This document shows, in pieces, positions 24,032 through 53,327 of a DNA stretch of 64,000 nucleotides (positions within the stretch are counted from its first letter, which is position 1; every line of letters begins with the position of its first letter). Source of the stretch: Verrucomicrobiaceae bacterium (GTDB lineage Bacteria; Verrucomicrobiota; Verrucomicrobiia; Verrucomicrobiales; Verrucomicrobiaceae); contig JAIXYN010000009.1 in the NCBI GenBank assembly GCA_027490195.1, positions 1-64,000 on the forward strand, in the 5' to 3' direction. The notes under the pieces were generated by a model, which worked only from the letters and a program-made list of their open reading frames with translations, had not been told where the DNA came from and ran no database searches. The position numbers and the translations under genes are program-made.

Positions 24032-24147
24032 TGTGAGTTGTTGGGTGATGCGTAAAAGTGAGGGAGCGGGACGATCCCCGTCTGCCAGAAAGCTGGGCGG
24101 CTGCGTGGTATGGGCGTTGCCCTACGCTGACGGGACGGACATAGCAT

Positions 24148-24161
24148 GCATTTCTCACACC
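24148..24161 (+). repeat. Left terminal inverted repeat of the IS element
   Basis: GCATTTCTCACACC is an exact complement of 25925-25938. Confidence 0.85.
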
Positions 24162-24220
24162 AAGGTGAGCAGGCGTGGTGGTCTTTGATTACAAAGGCAA
24201 AAACACACCGGAGCCCCCAG

Positions 24221-25720
24221 ATGCACACGACTCAAGCGACGACAGACTGTTATCAGCAAAGTTTCGATTTTCAAGGGCTGGGAAGCAGACGTGTCGAGGT
24301 CGATTTCTCCGGCGGCCATCTCTCCAGCGATGGTGGCTGCCTGCTGCTGCGCGAGGCGGACCGCGCCGAGCGCCTGTGTGAGCAGCTCGCTGAGTGCTTC
24401 ACCGATGCGCGCGAGCAGCGCTACGTCGAGCATGCACTGCCGGTCATGCTGCGCCAGCGCATCCTGGGCATCGCGCTGGGGTATGAGGATGTCAACGATC
24501 ACGACAAGCTGCGGAGCGATCCGCTGCTCGCCGCCATGTACGGGCGTGAGGATGTGCTCGGCTTGGAGCGTCATCAGGAGCAGGACAAGGGCAAGGCGCT
24601 GGCTGGCAAGAGCACGCTCAACCGGCTCGAACTCGGCGCACACAAAACCAACGCGCGCACCAAGAAGATCGAGGCGCATGCCGACAAAATTGAAGCCCTG
24701 CTGCTGCGTCAGGGCGTGGCGGCCATTGCGCGCCGCAGCATGGTCATCGTGTTGGATTTTGACGCCACCGATGATGCCCTGCACGGCCAGCAGGAGGGCC
24801 GCTTCTTCCATGGTTACTACGGCGGCTACTGCTACCTGCCGCTCTATTGCTTCTGTGTCGACATCCCGCTGTGGGCGCAGTTGCGCACGGCGGACCGCGA
24901 TGGCAGCGACGGCACGCTTGCAGCCCTGCAAAAGATCGTCGCGGCCATTCGTCAACGCTTTGGCAAACACGTCGCGATCATCGTGCGCGGGGACTCGGGC
25001 TTCTGCCGCGATGAGCTCATGACGTGGATCGAAGCGCAGGAGCACGTGCATTACGTGCTGGGCCTGGCGCGCAATGCGCGGCTCGAGGGCATGCTCGCAC
25101 CCACGTTCTGGGAGGTGGCCACGCAGATGGACCCGGATGTCGTGCTCTGCGCCAAAGCCTCTGGAGCAGATGCGCCACCACTGCCGCAAGAAGGCAGTGC
25201 GCGTGTGTTTGCCGAGCTGCGCTACCGCACGCTCAAAAGCTGGAGCAGGGAGCGCCGCGTCATCGGCGAAGCCGAGATCACACAGGTCAAACGCAACCCG
25301 CGCTACATCGTCACCGACCTCAAAGGCGATGAAGACTGGGCGCGAGATGAGTCCGCCTTCGCCAGCGGTGGCAGCTTGTATGAAGAGTTTTACTGCGCAC
25401 GCGGCGACATGGAGAACCGGATCAAGGAGCAGCAGTTCGACCTGTTTGCCGACCGCACTTCAAGCGCATTCTTCAAGAGCAACCAGTTGCGGCTGTGGTT
25501 CTCCACCTTTGCGTATTTGCTGATGCGACAAGTCCGGGCGGTGGCATTGAGCGGAACCCGGCTGGCGCGTGCCACGGTGGGCACGATCCGGCTGCAACTC
25601 ATGAAGATCGCCGCGCAGGTGACGGTGAGAGTTCGGCGTGTGCATGTGAGGCTGTGCAGCGCGTGTCCGCTGCGGGATGTGTTCGCCCACGCGCACGGCG
25701 GATTACGAGCGTTGAGTTGA
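24221..25720 (+). CDS. IS1380-family transposase
   Basis: The 499-residue DDE transposase (IS1380/DDE group 1) starts MHTTQATTDCYQQ. An in-frame ATG 25 codons earlier overlaps the left terminal repeat and is less likely. Visible family features are SSDGGCLLLREAD near the N-terminus and VMLRQRILGIALGYEDVNDHD. The catalytic core shows VIVLDFDATDD (first Asp), IIVRGDSGFCRDELM (second Asp) and GDMENRIKEQQFDLFADRTS (Glu region, with the tyrosine-transposase-like E-N-x-I-K). The frame is intact, so the element could be active. Confidence 0.93.
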   Translation: MHTTQATTDCYQQSFDFQGLGSRRVEVDFSGGHLSSDGGCLLLREADRAERLCEQLAECFTDAREQRYVEHALPVMLRQRILGIALGYEDVNDHDKLRSDPLLAAMYGREDVLGLERHQEQDKGKALAGKSTLNRLELGAHKTNARTKKIEAHADKIEALLLRQGVAAIARRSMVIVLDFDATDDALHGQQEGRFFHGYYGGYCYLPLYCFCVDIPLWAQLRTADRDGSDGTLAALQKIVAAIRQRFGKHVAIIVRGDSGFCRDELMTWIEAQEHVHYVLGLARNARLEGMLAPTFWEVATQMDPDVVLCAKASGADAPPLPQEGSARVFAELRYRTLKSWSRERRVIGEAEITQVKRNPRYIVTDLKGDEDWARDESAFASGGSLYEEFYCARGDMENRIKEQQFDLFADRTSSAFFKSNQLRLWFSTFAYLLMRQVRAVALSGTRLARATVGTIRLQLMKIAAQVTVRVRRVHVRLCSACPLRDVFAHAHGGLRALS

Positions 25721-26442: not shown

Positions 26443-27807
26443 ATGAAACTCCCCGCCCCCTCCGGCTGCTCCGGCTTCCGCCAAATGAACCTCCACCGCC
26501 GCGAAGCCATGCGCATCGGCTTCTGCAGCGCCCTCGGCCTCAGCATGGCCGACCTCCTCAAACACGAAGCCCGCGCCACCGTCGAGCCCGGCTTCTTCAA
26601 AGAAGGCAAAGCCAAGAGCATCATTCATCTCCACCTCCCCGGCGGCATGGCCCAGCAGGAATCCTGGGACCCCAAACCCGAAGCCCCCACCGAATATCGC
26701 GGCGCATTCGGCGTGGCCAAGACCAACACCGGCGAGGTCTTCAGCGAAAACTTCACCCGCCTTTCCAAGATCGCCGACAAGCTCACCATCGTCCGCTCCG
26801 TCACCGGCAAGATCCCCGATCACCAGCAGGCCACCTACCACCTCTACACCGGCTACACACCCACCACCGTCATCGACTACCCGCAGATGGGCAGCGTCGT
26901 CTCCCATCTCATGGGCGTGCGCCAAGGCATGCCGCCCTACGTCGCCATCCCCTCCATGCGCGGCTTTGAAGGCGGCACAGGATTCCTCAGCAGCAAGTAC
27001 GGCCCCTTCCAGCTCAACGCCGACCCCGGTGCCAAAGGCGAGTTCAAAGTCCGCGACTTCAGCATCCCCGACGGCGTCTCCATGCAGCAGTTCGAACGCC
27101 GCAAAGCCGCACGCGACATCGTCGAAGGCCAGCTCCGCAAACTGGATGCCGACATCGACAAGGTGAACACCATGGATGACTTCTACAAAAGCGCCTACTC
27201 CCTCCTCACCTCGGACGCCGCACGCAAAGCCTTCTCCCTCGCCGATGAAAATGACGCCACGCGCGATCTCTACGGCCGCGGCTACGAATTGAAACAACGC
27301 GCCCCCGCCGCCGTCGGCGAGCGCCTCCTCCTCGCCCGCCGCCTCGTCGAGTCCGGCGTGCGTTTCGTCAGTGTGAACTACGGCTCCTGGGACTCCCACG
27401 TGGACATCAAAAGCACCTGCACCGAATTCATGCCCGCCCTCGACCACGCCATCTCCGGCCTCATCACCGATCTCGATCAGCGCGGCATGCTCGACAGTAC
27501 CCTCGTCATGGTCACCACCGAGTTCGGCCGTACCCCGAAAGTCAACATGAGCAACGGCCGCGACCACTGGGCCCGCGTCTATTCCATGCTCCTCGCCGGC
27601 GGCGGCATCACCCGCGGCCAGATCTACGGCGCCTCCGACGCCACCTCCGCCGAGCCTGCTCGCGATGAAGTGAAGCTCGAAGACTTCCTCGCCACCGTTT
27701 ACAACCAGCTCGGCATCGACTCCAACGAAGAGCTCATGGCCTTCGGCGGTACACGCCCCATCGAAATCGTCAAAGACGGCAACGTCGTCAAAGGCATCAT
27801 CTCCTAA
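26443..27807 (+). CDS. DUF1501 family protein (Tat-type leader)
   Basis: The 454-residue protein belongs to the DUF1501 family, related to the alkaline phosphatase/sulfatase superfamily and abundant in planctomycetes and verrucomicrobia. The N-terminus has HRREAMRIGFCSALGLS, a twin-arginine-like signal. The true start may be Met15 (MNLHRREAM). Diagnostic stretches are HLHLPGGMAQQESWDPKPEAP, GKIPDHQQATYHLYTGY, NYGSWDSHVDIK and VTTEFGRTPKVN. The last two carry the acidic/His residues expected for metal binding. It heads a same-strand run with the PPC-domain gene 5 bases downstream. Family members usually pair with DUF1549/DUF1553 proteins, as here. The substrate is unknown. Confidence 0.93.
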   Translation: MKLPAPSGCSGFRQMNLHRREAMRIGFCSALGLSMADLLKHEARATVEPGFFKEGKAKSIIHLHLPGGMAQQESWDPKPEAPTEYRGAFGVAKTNTGEVFSENFTRLSKIADKLTIVRSVTGKIPDHQQATYHLYTGYTPTTVIDYPQMGSVVSHLMGVRQGMPPYVAIPSMRGFEGGTGFLSSKYGPFQLNADPGAKGEFKVRDFSIPDGVSMQQFERRKAARDIVEGQLRKLDADIDKVNTMDDFYKSAYSLLTSDAARKAFSLADENDATRDLYGRGYELKQRAPAAVGERLLLARRLVESGVRFVSVNYGSWDSHVDIKSTCTEFMPALDHAISGLITDLDQRGMLDSTLVMVTTEFGRTPKVNMSNGRDHWARVYSMLLAGGGITRGQIYGASDATSAEPARDEVKLEDFLATVYNQLGIDSNEELMAFGGTRPIEIVKDGNVVKGIIS

Positions 27808-27812
27808 TCGCC

Positions 27813-30230
27813 ATGCGACTTTTCACAGCCCTCATGAGTTCAGCATGTCTGCTCACCTCGGCGCTCGCAGGCCCCATGGTGCATCACATCGAGTATGTCA
27901 CGCCACGCGCAGGCCAGCGCGGCACTACAGTCGAGGTCACCATCGAAGGTGCCTTCATCAAAGAGGCACGCGAAGTCCTCTTCTATCGTCCCGGCATCCG
28001 CTGCATCGAACTGAAAAGCCTGCCCTCGCTGCCGCAGCCACGCAGCACGATCCACGGCGGTTTCATTGAGGACAGCGTGCAGGCAAAGCTTCAGATCGAC
28101 GCCGACTGCCCGCTCGGATTGCATCCCTTCAAACTGCGCACCGCCACCGAACTCACCACCCTCAGCACTTTCGCGGTGACGCGCTTTCCCATCGTCAAAG
28201 AAGCGCAGGAAGACCAGCCCGTGCCGATGAACAGCGCAGTGCTCGGCCGCATGGACACGACTCAAGTCGGCGATGTCGATGTCTATCGCGTCACCGGTCG
28301 CAAAGGCGAGCACCTTTCCGTGGAAGTCGATTCCGTATGGCTCACGGAGAAGTTTTACGCCGGGTCCGAGTTCGACCTCACCGCACGCATTCTCGATGCC
28401 AGTGGCAAAGAACTCGCCCGCAGTGACGACAGCGCCCTGCATCTGCAAGATCCCGTGCTCAGCACCATTCTCCCCGCCGACGGCGAATACCGCGTCGAGG
28501 TCAAACAGCGCATTTTCAATTCGGGCGGCAACTGCTACTACCTCGCGCACATCGGCTCAAATCATCGTCCCCTCGCCGTCTATCCCGCCGGCGGCATGAA
28601 AGGCGAAAAGCTTGCCACCACCCTTCTCGGCGATCCTCAAGGCGATGAAGCCATCCATGTCACTCTCCCCGCACAAACGGGCGACTTCGCTTTCAACGAC
28701 AACATGCCCTCGCCGCTGCTGATGCGCGTGAGCGACTTCCCCAATGTGCTCGAAGCCAAAGAGGCCGAGTCAACCAGCGTCACCGCCCTCCCGGCTGCTT
28801 TGAATGGCCGCATCGAAGCCGCCAATGATGCCGACAGCTTCCGCGTCAAGGCCAAAGCCGGTGATCGCTGGCGCGTGCGCGTGTTTGCACGGTCATTCGG
28901 CACGCCTCTCGATCCACGGCTCACCATTCGCAAAGCCGATGCCGAAACCGACGACATCACCGCTGATGACTCCGTTTTGTTGGATCGCGATCTCTGGGCC
29001 ATGTCCCGTCAGATTCAGCGCAAGGAGCTCATGGACCCGGCGGTCATTTGGGAACCAAAAACCGATGGCGATTACCTCATCAACATCACCGACATGCGCG
29101 GCCTTGGCGATCCAACTTCCGTTTACCGCATCGAGGTCGAACCCGTCCGCGATGAGATCAACACCTTCATCCAGGCGCGCGTCATCGACATGGTCGAATG
29201 TCCGCGCCTCACTAGTATCGCCGTGCCGCAGGGTGGCCGCTGGACGGTGAATGTGAACCTCGTCGATGCCCCCGGCTCTCGCTACAAAGGCGAGCTCGAC
29301 CTCGTCGTGCAGGGCCTGCCCAAAGGCGTGCGCATGATCGCTCCGCGTCTGCTCGCCGGTCAGCGTCAGGTGCCCGTTCAGTTCATCGTGGACGCCGCCA
29401 CCAAGCCACAGACCGCGCTCATCTCCATCACCTGCAAAGCCACCGATGGCACCCCACTGCTCAGCCGCTCGCAGCAGTCCTTTCCCTTCCTTGGCCACAG
29501 CGGTGGTCACGCCTGGCATTCCTTCGTCGTCAATGACTACGCCTTTGCAGTCACTGAGCCTGCCCCGTATCAAATCGATGTCGAGCAGCCCACCATCCCG
29601 CTTTCCCAAAACGGTGAACTCACGCTGCCGGTCAAAATCACGCGCATGCCCGGCTTTGATGAAGCCATCGAGCATCAGTTCGACTGGGTTCCACCCGGTG
29701 TCGAAGGCGAGCCCACACTCACCATTCCCGCAGGTAAAAACGCAGGCACCCTGCGCCTCAGCGCCAGCACCTCAGCCGTGCCCGGCACCTATCGTCTCGC
29801 CATGACCGCCTCCACCGCAGGCGGCTCCTACTACCTCGGCGCAGGTCGCATCCGCGCCTCCAGCGCCTTCATCGACATCACCATCGCCCAGCCCTACATC
29901 GCCCTGAAGAGCAATCCCACCGCCGTCCGTCGCGGCGAAAAAGCCCAGGTCATCTGGGACATCGAGCACAAGAAACCCTTCGAAGGTGAAGCCACCGCCA
30001 CCCTCCTCGGCCTCCCCAAAGGCGTCACCGTCATCAACACCCCCAAACTCAATTCCGGCGACAAACACCTCACCTTCGAAATCTCCGCCACCACCGAAGC
30101 CCTCCTCGGCCAATACAAAGAACTCAGCTGCGAAATCACCGTCACCGAACGCAACCAGCAAATCCGCCAGCGCACCGGCAAAGCCATCCTCCGCGTCGAC
30201 CCCGCCCTGCAAAAATCAGCCCTGAAATGA
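27813..30230 (+). CDS. Secreted multidomain protein with PPC domains
   Basis: The 805-residue product has a signal peptide (1-19). It continues with an Ig-like N-domain (PRAGQRGTTVEVTIEGAF), a bacterial pre-peptidase C-terminal (PPC) domain at about 145-240 (VGDVDVYRVTGRKGEHLSVEV), and a second PPC-like domain at about 330-445. C-terminal beta-sandwich modules follow (KGVRMIAPRLLAG, GVEGEPTLTIPAGK). No protease catalytic domain is present. It follows the DUF1501 gene by 5 bases, and the pair with DUF1549 is a recurrent planctomycete/verrucomicrobial arrangement. A substrate-binding or partner role in the periplasm is inferred. Confidence 0.87.
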   Translation: MRLFTALMSSACLLTSALAGPMVHHIEYVTPRAGQRGTTVEVTIEGAFIKEAREVLFYRPGIRCIELKSLPSLPQPRSTIHGGFIEDSVQAKLQIDADCPLGLHPFKLRTATELTTLSTFAVTRFPIVKEAQEDQPVPMNSAVLGRMDTTQVGDVDVYRVTGRKGEHLSVEVDSVWLTEKFYAGSEFDLTARILDASGKELARSDDSALHLQDPVLSTILPADGEYRVEVKQRIFNSGGNCYYLAHIGSNHRPLAVYPAGGMKGEKLATTLLGDPQGDEAIHVTLPAQTGDFAFNDNMPSPLLMRVSDFPNVLEAKEAESTSVTALPAALNGRIEAANDADSFRVKAKAGDRWRVRVFARSFGTPLDPRLTIRKADAETDDITADDSVLLDRDLWAMSRQIQRKELMDPAVIWEPKTDGDYLINITDMRGLGDPTSVYRIEVEPVRDEINTFIQARVIDMVECPRLTSIAVPQGGRWTVNVNLVDAPGSRYKGELDLVVQGLPKGVRMIAPRLLAGQRQVPVQFIVDAATKPQTALISITCKATDGTPLLSRSQQSFPFLGHSGGHAWHSFVVNDYAFAVTEPAPYQIDVEQPTIPLSQNGELTLPVKITRMPGFDEAIEHQFDWVPPGVEGEPTLTIPAGKNAGTLRLSASTSAVPGTYRLAMTASTAGGSYYLGAGRIRASSAFIDITIAQPYIALKSNPTAVRRGEKAQVIWDIEHKKPFEGEATATLLGLPKGVTVINTPKLNSGDKHLTFEISATTEALLGQYKELSCEITVTERNQQIRQRTGKAILRVDPALQKSALK

Positions 30231-30243
30231 ACGCCTTCCATTC

Positions 30244-30271
30244 GGCAAAGGAATAAAGGAGCAATGGAATG
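30244..30271 (-). repeat. 28-bp inverted repeat, left arm (flanks GxxExxY gene)
   Basis: Read on the minus strand, this segment begins CATTCCATTGCTCCTTT and ends CTTTGCC. It matches 26 of 28 bases of 31123-31150 on the plus strand. The two arms bracket one gene, 907 bp end to end. Confidence 0.8.
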
Positions 30272-30307
30272 ACTGAATTTTGAAGGACGGATATCTTATT
30301 TCACTTC

Positions 30308-31099
30308 ATGCCGATCACCTGCGCCATACCCATCGCCAATCTGACGCGCGACGAGTTCATCAAGCGCGACGAAATCATCATGAAATGCGCCTACGCCACG
30401 CAGAACAAACTGGGCCGCTTATGCGACGAGCAAGTGTACGAAAATGAACTGGCAGATCGCCTGCGCGCTGCCGGAATGAAGAATGTCATGACTCAGGTGC
30501 CACTTCGTGTGATGCATGGTTCATTCACCAAGGACTATCGCCTCGACCTTGTGGCAAATGATGCCGTCTATGAGCTGAAGACGCTTGAACACCTTATCCC
30601 CGCTCACGACGCCCAAGTGTTCAACTACGCCATGTGCCTCGGCATCCGCTGTATCAAACTGCTCAACTTCAGCGATCACAAAGTAAATGGAAAACTGCGC
30701 ATGGCTCCGGTCACAACAGCCCAGCGCCATGCATGTAGGATCACGACAAACGGCTGGCAGCCACTTTCGGAAAAATGCCGTCTTCTCAGAGACCATCTCA
30801 CCTGCCTTGTTGATGATCTCGGCGGCTTCCTCGAAGCCAGTCTCTATCGGGAGGCCCTGTCATGCCTTCTTACCGCTCCCGAGACTCGGCTCACCGTAAC
30901 CAGCAACAACATCGAACTCGGCACCCATACACTGCCAATGCTCGCCGGACACACTGCCTTCCACGTCAGTTCCTACACAACCTACATCGAGCAACAGCGC
31001 CCCCACCTCCAGCTCCTTCTCGCCACATTACCTCTGAAGTGCCTCCACTGGATCAACTTCAATCACCAGGACATCACCCTGACCACTCTCCTCCAGTAA
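30308..31099 (+). CDS. GxxExxY protein with PD-(D/E)XK nuclease-like core
   Basis: The first 135 residues match the GxxExxY family: E41-Q-V-Y44 at the family signature, then a nuclease-fold core with D80, E89-L-K91 and H100-DAQVFNY. The remaining 125 residues are an additional C-terminal region I do not recognise. No catalytic activity is proven for the family. The gene interrupts a run of secreted-protein genes, has no signal peptide, and is enclosed by the 28-bp inverted repeat, so it looks like an inserted cassette. Codon use is less NNC-biased than its neighbours. Confidence 0.85.
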   Translation: MPITCAIPIANLTRDEFIKRDEIIMKCAYATQNKLGRLCDEQVYENELADRLRAAGMKNVMTQVPLRVMHGSFTKDYRLDLVANDAVYELKTLEHLIPAHDAQVFNYAMCLGIRCIKLLNFSDHKVNGKLRMAPVTTAQRHACRITTNGWQPLSEKCRLLRDHLTCLVDDLGGFLEASLYREALSCLLTAPETRLTVTSNNIELGTHTLPMLAGHTAFHVSSYTTYIEQQRPHLQLLLATLPLKCLHWINFNHQDITLTTLLQ

Positions 31100-31122
31100 A
31101 GCCATAAATTCAGTCTCCGGAA

Positions 31123-31150
31123 CATTCCCTTGCTCCTTCATTCCTTTGCC
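31123..31150 (+). repeat. 28-bp inverted repeat, right arm (flanks GxxExxY gene)
   Basis: It begins CATTCCCTTGCTCCTTC and ends CTTTGCC, immediately before the DUF1549 start codon at 31154. It is the inverted partner of 30244-30271. The core CATTCCCTTGC recurs at 26299 and twice at 37951-37976, ahead of other genes of the cluster. Confidence 0.8.
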
Positions 31151-31153
31151 AAA

Positions 31154-33346
31154 ATGAAACCCCTCCTCCTGGCCCTGCTATTCCCTCTCCAGGTCATAGC
31201 CTCCGAAGCCCCCAGCTTCCGTCGCGACGTCATGCCCATCCTCTTCCGCTCTGGCTGCAACCAAGGCACCTGCCACGGCTCCGCTCGCGGCAAAGACGGC
31301 TTCATGCTCTCCCTCTTCGGCTACGATGCCAAAGGCGACTACTACCGCATCACCCAGGAAATGGTCGGTCGCCGCGTCAATCTCGCCGCCCCTGAGCAAA
31401 GCCTCATGCTCCTCAAAGCCACCGGCAAAGTACCCCACACCGGCGGCGAGCTCTTCAAGCCCGATACCCAATACTACCAGACCCTGCTCAACTGGATCGC
31501 CGCCGGCGCCCCCGACGATGCCGCGTCCGTCCCCCAGCCCGTCGAGATCACCCTCGCGCCCGAACGCCTCGTATTCGAAGGCGGCAAAGGCACGCAAAAG
31601 ACCACCGTCACCGCCCGCTACTCCGACGGCACCAAGCGCGATGTCACCGACCTCGCTCTCTTCTCCTCCAACAACCCCTCCACCGCCAAGATCGACAAAA
31701 ACGGCGTCGTCACCTCCACCGGCCGTGGCGACACCCACGTCTTCGCCCGCTTCAGCCGCTTCACCATCGGCTCTGAAGTCATCGTCCTCCCCCAGGACAA
31801 AAACTACCAATGGACCAATCCCGTCGCGAACAACTACATCGACGAAATCATCCACGACCGCCTGCAAAAGCTGCGCCTCCTCCCTTCCGAAATCTGCGAT
31901 GACGAAACCTTCCTCCGCCGCGTCTTCCTGGATCTCAGCGGCGCACTCCCCACCACCAAGGACTATCAGGAGTTCATGGCGGACACGTCCAAAGACAAGC
32001 GCACCGCCCTCATCGACCGCCTGCTAAAAAGCGATGGCTTTACCGATCTCTGGACGGACCTCTGGGCCGAAATGCTCCGCGTCAAAGGCGGCGGCTACGC
32101 ACCGTCCGCCACAGACGTGAAGGCTGCCGACGTTTACTACGAATGGATTCACGATCAGATGGCACAGAACCGTCCGCTCAACGAATTCGTCGCCGATCAA
32201 ATCACCGGCACCGGCAGCAATCTCAACAGCGGCCCTGCCAATCTCTACACCATGCTCATTCATGATGTGAAGGTGACCCCGAAGAACCTCGCCGCCGACT
32301 TCTCTCAGCTCTTCACCGGCGTGCGCATCCAGTGCGCCGAATGCCACAACCATCCCTTCGACCGCTGGACCCAGGACGACTACTACGGCTGGGTCAGCTT
32401 CTTCACCGGCATCCAGCGCAAGCTCGGCGTCGAGCCCCGCGAGTTCTATGTCTTCAATGACCTTTCCGCCGCTCCGGCAAAGCACATCGTCGACGAGCGT
32501 CCCATGCACCCCACCGTGCTCGGGGGTGAAAGCAGCGTGCCCAAAGGCAAAGATCCCCGTCAGGCCCTCGCTGCCTGGCTCACCTCGCCAAAGAACGAGC
32601 TCTTCACTCGCAACCTCGCCAACCGCATCTGGTCCCACTTCATGGGTCGCGGCCTCGTGGAGCCTCTCGACGACATGCGCGTCAGCAACCCGCCCACCAA
32701 CGGCCCTTTGCTCGACGCCCTCGCCCAGCACCTCGCCGACTCCAAATTCAATCTCCGCACCTTCATCCGCGACATCACCACTTCGCGCACCTACCAGCTC
32801 TCCGCGCAGCCCAACAAGACCAACGCCGACGACACCCGCCAGTTCTCACGCTCACAGCTTCGACGACTGCGCGCGGACGTCCTGCTCGATGCCATCGTGA
32901 AAGCCACCGACGGCGAACGCGGCTTCACCTATTTCCCCAAAGGCACCAAGGCCGTCCAGCACTACCCCCGCACCCCCGGAGACACCACCAACGCCCACAC
33001 CGGAGATCCCTTCTTCGAAACCTTCGGCCGTGCCGGACGCGCCAGCGTCTGCGCCTGCGACACCAAGCTTGAGCCCACCCTCTCACAAACCCTCCACATG
33101 GTCGCTGGCGACACCGTCCAAAGCCAGGTCGGTTTCGGTCAGGTCATCGAAAAACAGCTCAAAGCCAGCACACCGCCGGAAACGATCATCGAAAACCTCT
33201 ACCTCCGCTCCCTCAGCCGCAAACCCAAGCCCGAAGAACTCAAAGCCCTCCTCGAACTCGTCGGCAGCGACACCAAAGACCGCAAACCCTACCAGGACAT
33301 CTTCTGGAGCCTCCTCAATTCCACCGAGTTCATCTTCAATCATTGA
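31154..33346 (+). CDS. DUF1549/DUF1553 protein with cytochrome-like motifs
   Basis: The 730-residue product starts MKPLLLALLFPLQVIASEA, a clear signal peptide. An ATT/ATG eight codons earlier is unlikely because it lies in the repeat. A PSCyt-like N-domain has C35-NQGT-C40-H41. A BIG2-like domain follows (about 135-210, VTARYSDGTKRDVTD), then DUF1549 (about 225-420) with C394-AE-C397-H398, and DUF1553 (about 470-720, NRIWSHFMGRGLVEP). The C-x-x-C-H motif could bind haem c. It belongs with the DUF1501 gene in one periplasmic module. Substrate and electron partners are unknown. Confidence 0.93.
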   Translation: MKPLLLALLFPLQVIASEAPSFRRDVMPILFRSGCNQGTCHGSARGKDGFMLSLFGYDAKGDYYRITQEMVGRRVNLAAPEQSLMLLKATGKVPHTGGELFKPDTQYYQTLLNWIAAGAPDDAASVPQPVEITLAPERLVFEGGKGTQKTTVTARYSDGTKRDVTDLALFSSNNPSTAKIDKNGVVTSTGRGDTHVFARFSRFTIGSEVIVLPQDKNYQWTNPVANNYIDEIIHDRLQKLRLLPSEICDDETFLRRVFLDLSGALPTTKDYQEFMADTSKDKRTALIDRLLKSDGFTDLWTDLWAEMLRVKGGGYAPSATDVKAADVYYEWIHDQMAQNRPLNEFVADQITGTGSNLNSGPANLYTMLIHDVKVTPKNLAADFSQLFTGVRIQCAECHNHPFDRWTQDDYYGWVSFFTGIQRKLGVEPREFYVFNDLSAAPAKHIVDERPMHPTVLGGESSVPKGKDPRQALAAWLTSPKNELFTRNLANRIWSHFMGRGLVEPLDDMRVSNPPTNGPLLDALAQHLADSKFNLRTFIRDITTSRTYQLSAQPNKTNADDTRQFSRSQLRRLRADVLLDAIVKATDGERGFTYFPKGTKAVQHYPRTPGDTTNAHTGDPFFETFGRAGRASVCACDTKLEPTLSQTLHMVAGDTVQSQVGFGQVIEKQLKASTPPETIIENLYLRSLSRKPKPEELKALLELVGSDTKDRKPYQDIFWSLLNSTEFIFNH

Positions 33347-43231: not shown

Positions 43232-43624
43232 GAGTGGGGGGGCGGCTCAGATAGCACGCTCTCCCTCCCCCTGCGACAGATTACCTTCCACCAGCTCCAA
43301 AAGATCTCCTGCATGCATGCCACTCGTTAAACCCGAACGTCGTTCGTTGAATAGGTCTGATGAGGACGAGAACTGCCGCCTCTCAAGCACCAAAGGTGCG
43401 GCCTATCGCAGCCCAGGGCAGACGAGCCTGGGCGAGGCCGCCCCTGGGTTTCCGCCATTCCAATCCGGGAAGCAAACCCACCACTCCACCACACCCCACG
43501 CCCACCAGCAGCGTCTGCAAAAAGTTCCGCCTCGCCTCAGTCCCCTCCGAACAATTTACAATTCTCAGTTTTCAGTTCCCAGTTTTCAATCCCCGACCAC
43601 TCCAACAATCTCCGCCAATAACCC
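43232..43624. other. Intergenic region with dispersed repeat
   Basis: No gene is seen. It contains repeat copy B (43392-43480), a low-complexity TCAGTTTTCAGTTCCCAGTTTTC-like stretch around 43565-43590, and a CACGC/CGTCTG patch. Two leftward genes flank it, so the promoter of the GDPD gene is not here but beyond its start. Confidence 0.45.
43392..43480 (+). repeat. Dispersed repeat copy B (about 90 bp)
   Basis: Direct-orientation relative of 37730-37819, ending in the same CCGGGAAGCAAACCCA. The distance between copies is about 5.7 kb, so a direct-repeat recombination would delete six genes. Confidence 0.65.
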
Positions 43625-53240: not shown

Positions 53241-53327
53241 GAATGACGAAACCCGAATGAGGAATGACGAATGAAGTCCGAATGATCTAAATGGACGTTT
53301 TGGGCATTCATTCGCCATTCGTCATTC
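53241..53327. repeat. Inverted-repeat element between gatB and the small basic protein gene
   Basis: GAATGACGAATG (53262-53273) and its complement CATTCGTCATTC (53316-53327) form a perfect 12-bp stem. A third copy of the unit begins at 53241 (GAATGACGAA). The T-run is missing, so it is repeat-like more than terminator-like. Confidence 0.65.

Follow-up and report, generated by a model that had tools for sequence, protein, structure and literature searches.

We propose that an inverted-repeat cassette in the DNA of a Verrucomicrobiaceae bacterium is one copy of a REP/RAYT-like family of elements, each consisting of a gene for a predicted PD-(D/E)XK nuclease of the GxxExxY family together with its cognate repeats, with the nuclease acting on those repeats; we consider this reading probable, with considerable room for doubt. 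The cassette lies in a window of 64,000 nucleotides, the whole stretch of DNA that was analysed, and had been singled out from the sequence by an earlier note (the original prediction) as resembling a mobile cassette without a transposase.

The left arm (30244-30271, + strand) contains two oriented units, GGCAAAGGAAT and GCAATGGAATG, with a 16-nt period, and the right arm (31123-31150, - strand) is its reverse complement at 26 of 28 positions, so that the predicted pairing of two 28-nt arms was borne out on re-measurement. A repeat search extended the inverted repeat to 36 nt at 86% (30236-30271 and 31123-31158), the runner-up inverted pair in the same 5.5-kb stretch being 23 nt at 83%. Just inside the arms lies a 10-nt inverted pair, with its left half (GACTGAATTT) at 30271-30280 (+) and its right half at 31106-31115 (-). 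The arms bracket exactly one gene, as had been claimed: the 263-residue GxxExxY/PDDEXK_3 gene (30308-31099, +) is the sole ORF between them, with a G+C content of 54.8% against 61.1% for the PPC gene and 61.6% for the DUF1549 gene. These two genes belong to the host operon, all on the + strand, comprising a DUF1501 gene (26443-27807), the PPC-domain gene upstream of the element (27813-30230) and the DUF1549/DUF1553 gene downstream of it (31154-33346). The right arm ends at 31150, three nucleotides ahead of the DUF1549/DUF1553 ATG at 31154, again as predicted; the mechanical ORF list starts the same frame at a TTG at 31130. An Rfam scan of the window gave a tRNA at 1990-2061 as its sole match over threshold, with nothing near the cassette. 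An IS1380-family transposase gene (24146-25720) is found upstream of the DUF1501 operon.

If the cassette were an insertion, relatives should include the operon without it, a check that the original prediction had proposed. Among 39 genomes of the genus searched, the orthologous operon is filled in five (G000, G011, G012, G038 and G048) and empty in seven (G016, G020, G040, G043, G044, G045 and G049), with the PPC stop codon at or near the DUF1549 start; in G001 the GxxExxY gene is gone and the right arm alone remains at the orthologous site. The site coincides with a contig end in G021, and no clear orthologous site was read in the remaining genus genomes. In G038 arms facing each other stand on each side of the gene, and in G048 the arms on both sides of the gene have GGCAGCGGAATG in place of G000's GGCAAAGGAAT. 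In G011 (L164) a segment made up of the final part of the GxxExxY gene, the right arm and the DUF1549 start stands in three tandem copies, perhaps as an artefact of assembly. For a second element, L155, the filled form is seen in G000 and G012 and the empty one in G001, G011, G020, G040, G042, G043 and G049; on its right side this element has, by eye, two arms back to back. Divergence at the junctions of the closest empty sites made a target-site duplication unreadable at the window locus and at L155. We conclude that orthologous sites differ in having or lacking an entire element. The predicted behaviour of an inserted cassette is upheld by the empty DUF1501-PPC-DUF1549 operons and by cognate arms elsewhere that enclose no gene.

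The enclosed protein matches PF13366 (PDDEXK_3; E 2.4e-18, 67 bits against a curated cut-off of 22) and TIGR04256 (GxxExxY; E 5e-17, 62.3 bits against a curated cut-off of 35), and these are its only matches in Pfam and NCBIfam, with no match to a transposase, an HUH protein or an S23p/four-helix bundle. An AlphaFold2 model built from a 28-sequence alignment (mean pLDDT 95) has two tandem domains. The first (residues 14-132; 30347-30703, +) is PD-(D/E)XK-like and keeps E41, D80, E89 and K91, which are invariant in domain 1 of 28 aligned two-domain proteins; the second (residues 155-262; 30770-31093, +) has the helix and strand order of the first, and the catalytic residues were not seen in its alignment by eye. 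In 21 other members E30, D70 and K82 are invariant and E80 is kept at 90% or more. Many of the best structural matches are PD-(D/E)XK proteins, among them SSO0001 (Z 8.2, rmsd 3.5 over 100 residues), R.SwaI (Z 7.8), Holliday junction resolvases (Z 5.0-5.4) and Cas4 (Z 6.5); values of about 8 or less often arise by chance, and these scores alone would not settle the fold. Wolbachia CinB, with low TM-scores, was the one Foldseek match below E 0.001, and a sequence search of the PDB gave one match only, at chance level (E 0.83). No role is given for GxxExxY proteins in the available text of the open-licence papers that name the family (on reverse transcriptases and on an algal virus genome), nor for PF13366 where that family is named in the same kind of literature.

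Sequence comparison of the orthologues indicates that the gene at the window locus is under purifying selection. The five orthologous proteins are all 263 residues long and align without gaps, with intact frames; dN/dS is about 0.14 (0.13-0.15 in the three pairs with dS below 1) and ranges from 0.09 to 0.16 across nine ortholog pairs, being undefined for one pair. The description of a cassette without a transposase holds in that no known transposase family was matched; it does not hold in that the most likely acting enzyme is the very PD-(D/E)XK protein that the arms enclose. The enclosed gene may thus supply the transposase that seemed to be absent.

Two observations had been named in advance as counting against a cassette, the gene mostly lacking arms in relatives and the arms being widely scattered without it. 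The first was not seen. In the window's own genome six of seven TIGR04256 matches lie inside inverted arms, every pair with a different sequence, and the family is present in 32 of 37 genomes searched, the own genome included. Across the own and related genomes, 84 of 128 GxxExxY loci are armed (alignment score 15 or more) against five of 137 neighbour genes (Fisher p ~1e-29, with relatedness ignored). Neighbour genes were chosen as the control; cross-locus pairing scored high, probably because same-class arms match between loci. The top neighbour-gene score, 86, comes from an inverted pair of similar DUF1501-like stretches. In the set of 128, longer stretches of the same places were used instead of the short initial copies L001-L005 and L007, second-domain matches of one ORF were counted once, and four matches (G005:C188, G009:C33, G019:C511 and G029:C63) were left out. 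The remaining 44 loci have no arms above threshold, and the arm test misses some: L090 scores 11, yet the same element shows arms in L351. Sixteen loci form an armless clade, without which 84 of 112 are armed. Flanking DNA is common to 51 of 120 pairs within this clade against 101 of 3081 in armed loci; the armless clade is thus more often at conserved places, as expected for a settled gene. Its members (L053, L109-L117, L119-L121, L123, L125 and L156) are candidate settled, or domesticated, copies.

The arrangement of a gene between inverted arms is general. In a named multi-phylum set, arms reach a score of 15 or more at 60 of 77 loci against three of 263 control intervals from the same loci, and a score of 17 or more at 50 of 77 against none of 263. 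The query here was an alignment of six armed proteins and the set is the best 80 of 569 confirmed hits, so that the armed share may be too high and is not a family-wide estimate; L255, L260 and L295, whose flanks are too short, reduce the 80 loci to the 77 tested. These best 80 of 569 come from Verrucomicrobia, Planctomycetes, Bacteroidota, several classes of Proteobacteria, Chloroflexi, Cyanobacteria, Nitrospirae, Leptospiraceae, Marinimicrobia, Lentisphaerae, relatives of Fibrobacter and others.

An arm consists of two or three direct units, with a best period of 9-10 or 18-20 nt for 38 of 50 single-domain proteins and of 14-18 nt for 25 of 29 two-domain proteins. By eye, the unit follows the clade on the protein tree (FastTree, 124 of the 128 loci). 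Among relatives, once pairs with similar flanks are taken out, protein identity correlates with arm similarity at rho 0.18 (null distribution from 2000 permutations: sd 0.032, maximum 0.117), as measured on 79 loci with a score of 15 or more and arms of 20 nt or more, L148 being left out; for 57 of these 79, the arm of the nearest protein neighbour ranks in the top tenth. Across phyla rho is 0.44 (n=60), higher than in any of 2000 permutations (sd 0.034, maximum 0.136), and shared host ancestry may add to both values. When arms were compared in the opposite orientation rho was -0.06 among relatives and 0.09 across phyla, so the polarity of the arm relative to the gene is largely fixed. These alignments indicate that arm sequence follows the enclosed protein.

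Some carrier genomes also have arms scattered through them, usually singly and at times as short hairpins with no gene. The original prediction had called for a search for further copies of the arm, and cognate arms do occur elsewhere without a gene. There is no single shared cassette repeat, each protein clade having repeats of its own. Nor are arms of the window class widely scattered without the gene, exact copies occurring in only nine of 39 genus genomes (61 matches, the element's own arms counted; reversed pattern, none), among them all five with the gene at the window locus. Copies outside the locus were found in four of the five gene-bearing genomes and four of the other 34 (Fisher p 0.004, with relatives not independent and 15 of the 39 outside the family search); in G048, which carries the gene, the exact pattern gave no dispersed copy. 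Window-class copies accompany an empty site in G020 and G043, and G007 has two copies, its orthologous site not being identified; no window-class gene is among the GxxExxY matches of G007 and G020 (G043 was outside that search). A second class of arm (class-2) occurs in 23 of 39 genomes (control, 0), including G001, which has 15 copies and whose sole GxxExxY match is armless; this class is less tightly tied to a surviving gene than the window class.

Further afield, Pontibacter fetidus has 55 matches, all CAGGATT, and Hymenobacter siberiensis 15, all GCGGATT, in each case the form in the arms of its own gene (own arms counted; controls 0). Pontibacter beigongshangensis has four matches to the common pattern, in the CAGGATT form, and three of the six Bacteroidota genomes have none. 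Most dispersed copies are solo arms. An inverted partner was found for seven of 35 class-1 entries, which represent only four hairpins; here hairpin arms are counted singly and the arms of gene-bearing elements are included. For class-2, 13 of 40 copies, themselves part of the listed class-2 hits, have a partner by alignment, the fuzzy hairpin search having missed partners. In both classes the partner is always downstream and never upstream, with the arms facing each other. Reversed sequence is uninformative as a control for hairpins since reversal keeps them. Facing arms in H. siberiensis enclose, by eye, an intrinsic-terminator-like hairpin and not a gene in four of six gene-less pairs (L431, L432, L433 and L440). 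Six arm-like strings were absent from the open-licence literature searched; an earlier description elsewhere is possible.

Outside the element, 24 sites in G012 match the L155-class right arm, against hardly any in the other genomes searched. Of 18 G012 copies examined, 15 are 96-100% and three 90-92% identical to one copy, and in nine a 19-nt end sequence recurs inverted beyond the hairpin. These copies (L371-L388, many at contig ends) belong to a multi-copy MITE-like repeat of ~166 nt that has terminal inverted repeats of 19 nt, TCAATGTCGTTAAGTTAAG, and contains the arm hairpin. We therefore rejected self-amplification in G012: the hairpin hitch-hikes in another MITE. Several class-2 copies in G043 have a longer common context and call for the same caution.

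Hitch-hiking of this kind raises the question of whether a different enzyme, either a RAYT or a DDE transposase, disperses REP-like hairpins, with GxxExxY genes as passive cargo captured between two of them. The unrelated MITE that carries the L155-class hairpin in G012 is consistent with such capture, as are the facing arms of H. siberiensis that enclose non-genic DNA. We nevertheless consider it unlikely, because passive cargo does not lead one to expect arm sequences that track the protein across phyla at fixed polarity, nor inverted arms that are so rare around neighbour genes and control intervals.

The elements share with insertion sequences and MITEs their inverted ends, the existence of gene-bearing and gene-less forms, and presence or absence at orthologous sites. 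A conventional insertion sequence, with the arms as terminal inverted repeats and the nuclease as a cut-and-paste transposase, would account for the inverted ends, for the single gene and for the clean presence and absence. It is, however, an improbable explanation: no known transposase family was matched inside the element, whose protein matches PF13366 and TIGR04256 only, and the arms are arrays of direct units, mostly solo, with some genes having facing arms on each side. REP/REPIN-RAYT systems (TnpA-REP, “REPtron”) likewise combine a single gene with short repeats, have cognate repeats dispersed through the genome and doublets arranged as inverted hairpins, and have an enzyme and repeat that vary together (available text of PMC3116915 and PMC8266576). 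A gene flanked by a genome-dispersed type of repeat, by which REP/RAYT systems are recognised, was found here too. In contrast to the RAYT, an HUH single-tyrosine transposase, the enclosed enzyme is of predicted PD-(D/E)XK type; an arm is two or three direct units where a REP is a single palindrome, and most of the copies examined are solo arms. By analogy, then, the GxxExxY family is best described as working like a REP/RAYT system and not as a member of it.

Orientation relative to host genes was read at 73 of 79 loci with both neighbours, using simple longest-ORF calls. The upstream ORF is co-directional with the gene-bearing element at 64 of the 73, and at 49 the nearest upstream ORF either stops no more than 20 nt short of the element or reaches up to 3 nt into it. 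Gene-bearing elements are in sense orientation in 52 of 60 co-directional gaps (p 5e-9 for 52 versus 8). Gene-less class-2 copies, of which 25 of 40 were used and 15 inside called ORFs set aside, show no sense bias, with four sense versus seven antisense in co-directional gaps. Small as these numbers are, they favour selection for read-through expression rather than RNA-directed insertion as the source of the bias.

Similar arms surround a second kind of gene. Inverted arms surround TIGR02436 (four-helix-bundle) genes at 18 of the 27 loci examined in the window's genome and its relatives, with no separate control; the 27 come from 35 loci, eight of unusual locus length being left out, L060 and L061 lie outside the 35, and not all family matches were taken. 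Four of the eight TIGR02436 genes in the own genome are armed. Armed genes with short tandem units include L054, L056, L058 and L059 in the own genome and members of the set L222-L249, and several of these arms have units of ~7 nt. The window itself contains a gene-less hairpin at 53255-53327 with arms, GAATGAGGAATGACGAATGAA, like those of the four-helix-bundle gene L058, and a solo ACTGGGAACTGAAAACTG array at 43566-43583, similar in kind to four-helix-bundle arms. The hairpin is absent from the orthologous site in G016, G020, G040, G042 and G045. The armed TIGR02436 genes suggest that two unrelated protein families run similar elements. The TAACTGA heptamer repeats of marine Beggiatoaceae are also short direct repeats between genes, with a period like that of several four-helix-bundle arms here, and regulatory roles have been proposed for them (available text of PMC4679880); the terms “four helix” and “S23” are absent from the main text of that paper. 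By analogy we offer as a suggestion that those repeats are linked to the four-helix-bundle arms.

These genes recall the intervening sequences (IVS) of 23S rRNA. In Coxiella the terminal inverted repeats of the IVS form a 28-bp stem around an S23p ORF, with heptameric repeats adjacent (available text of PMC4990558); a long terminal-inverted-repeat stem around one small ORF and the involvement of short repeats are thus common to both. The element described here differs in that its gene encodes a predicted nuclease and in that it lies between the PPC and DUF1549 genes of an operon, not in rRNA. It might still act at the RNA level, the arm RNA forming a stem processed by RNase III and the gene being a passenger, and the Coxiella precedent, the sense bias of gene-bearing copies and the armed four-helix-bundle loci (which lack a separate control) are all in keeping with this. 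We give it a low probability, since the lack of a sense bias in gene-less class-2 copies makes the bias look like selection for expression, and since an RNA-level element accounts neither for the match of unit to protein nor for solo arms scattered in genomes. That the arms are operators or structural sites for an immobile, host-useful nuclease of defence or toxin type is very improbable. The apparent purifying selection on the gene and a possible likeness of the direct units to iteron operators fit this reading, but it leaves unexplained why a right arm follows the stop codon, why arms occur dispersed without a gene and why some sites are empty.

The arms are small arrays of oriented units that face each other across the gene, so that either strand can fold back with the gene in the loop. 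Under the REP/RAYT-like reading that we prefer, the nuclease would bind its own unit array, probably as an internal pseudo-dimer in the two-domain form, and would nick or cut it, either as duplex or as extruded hairpin. Repair at the cut sites may then insert or convert further copies, much as the RAYT is thought to serve REPs. Expression of the gene itself probably depends on host read-through. This would account for the mostly sense orientation of gene-bearing copies close behind a host ORF, whereas no such bias was seen in the gene-less copies examined.

We suggest, with about as much doubt as belief, that these elements belong to a large and unnamed class of selfish or domesticated bacterial elements. 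The class would span at least ten phyla, and in it a PD-(D/E)XK nuclease would recognise the oriented repeat array that belongs to it and bring about the spread of that array; four-helix-bundle (S23-like) proteins would run a parallel system on short tandem arrays, with the rRNA intervening sequences as one special case. Protein and a short, readable DNA array vary together in more than 100 natural pairs (79 among relatives and 60 across phyla), making both the role of the protein and the origin of the repeat testable. If the proposal is true, this set of natural nuclease-site pairs would serve for working out DNA recognition, and the REP/RAYT system would have a non-HUH counterpart. It would likewise place the long-known rRNA intervening sequences in a wider setting, and would provide a function for GxxExxY proteins and an origin for many of the short intergenic repeats in these genomes.
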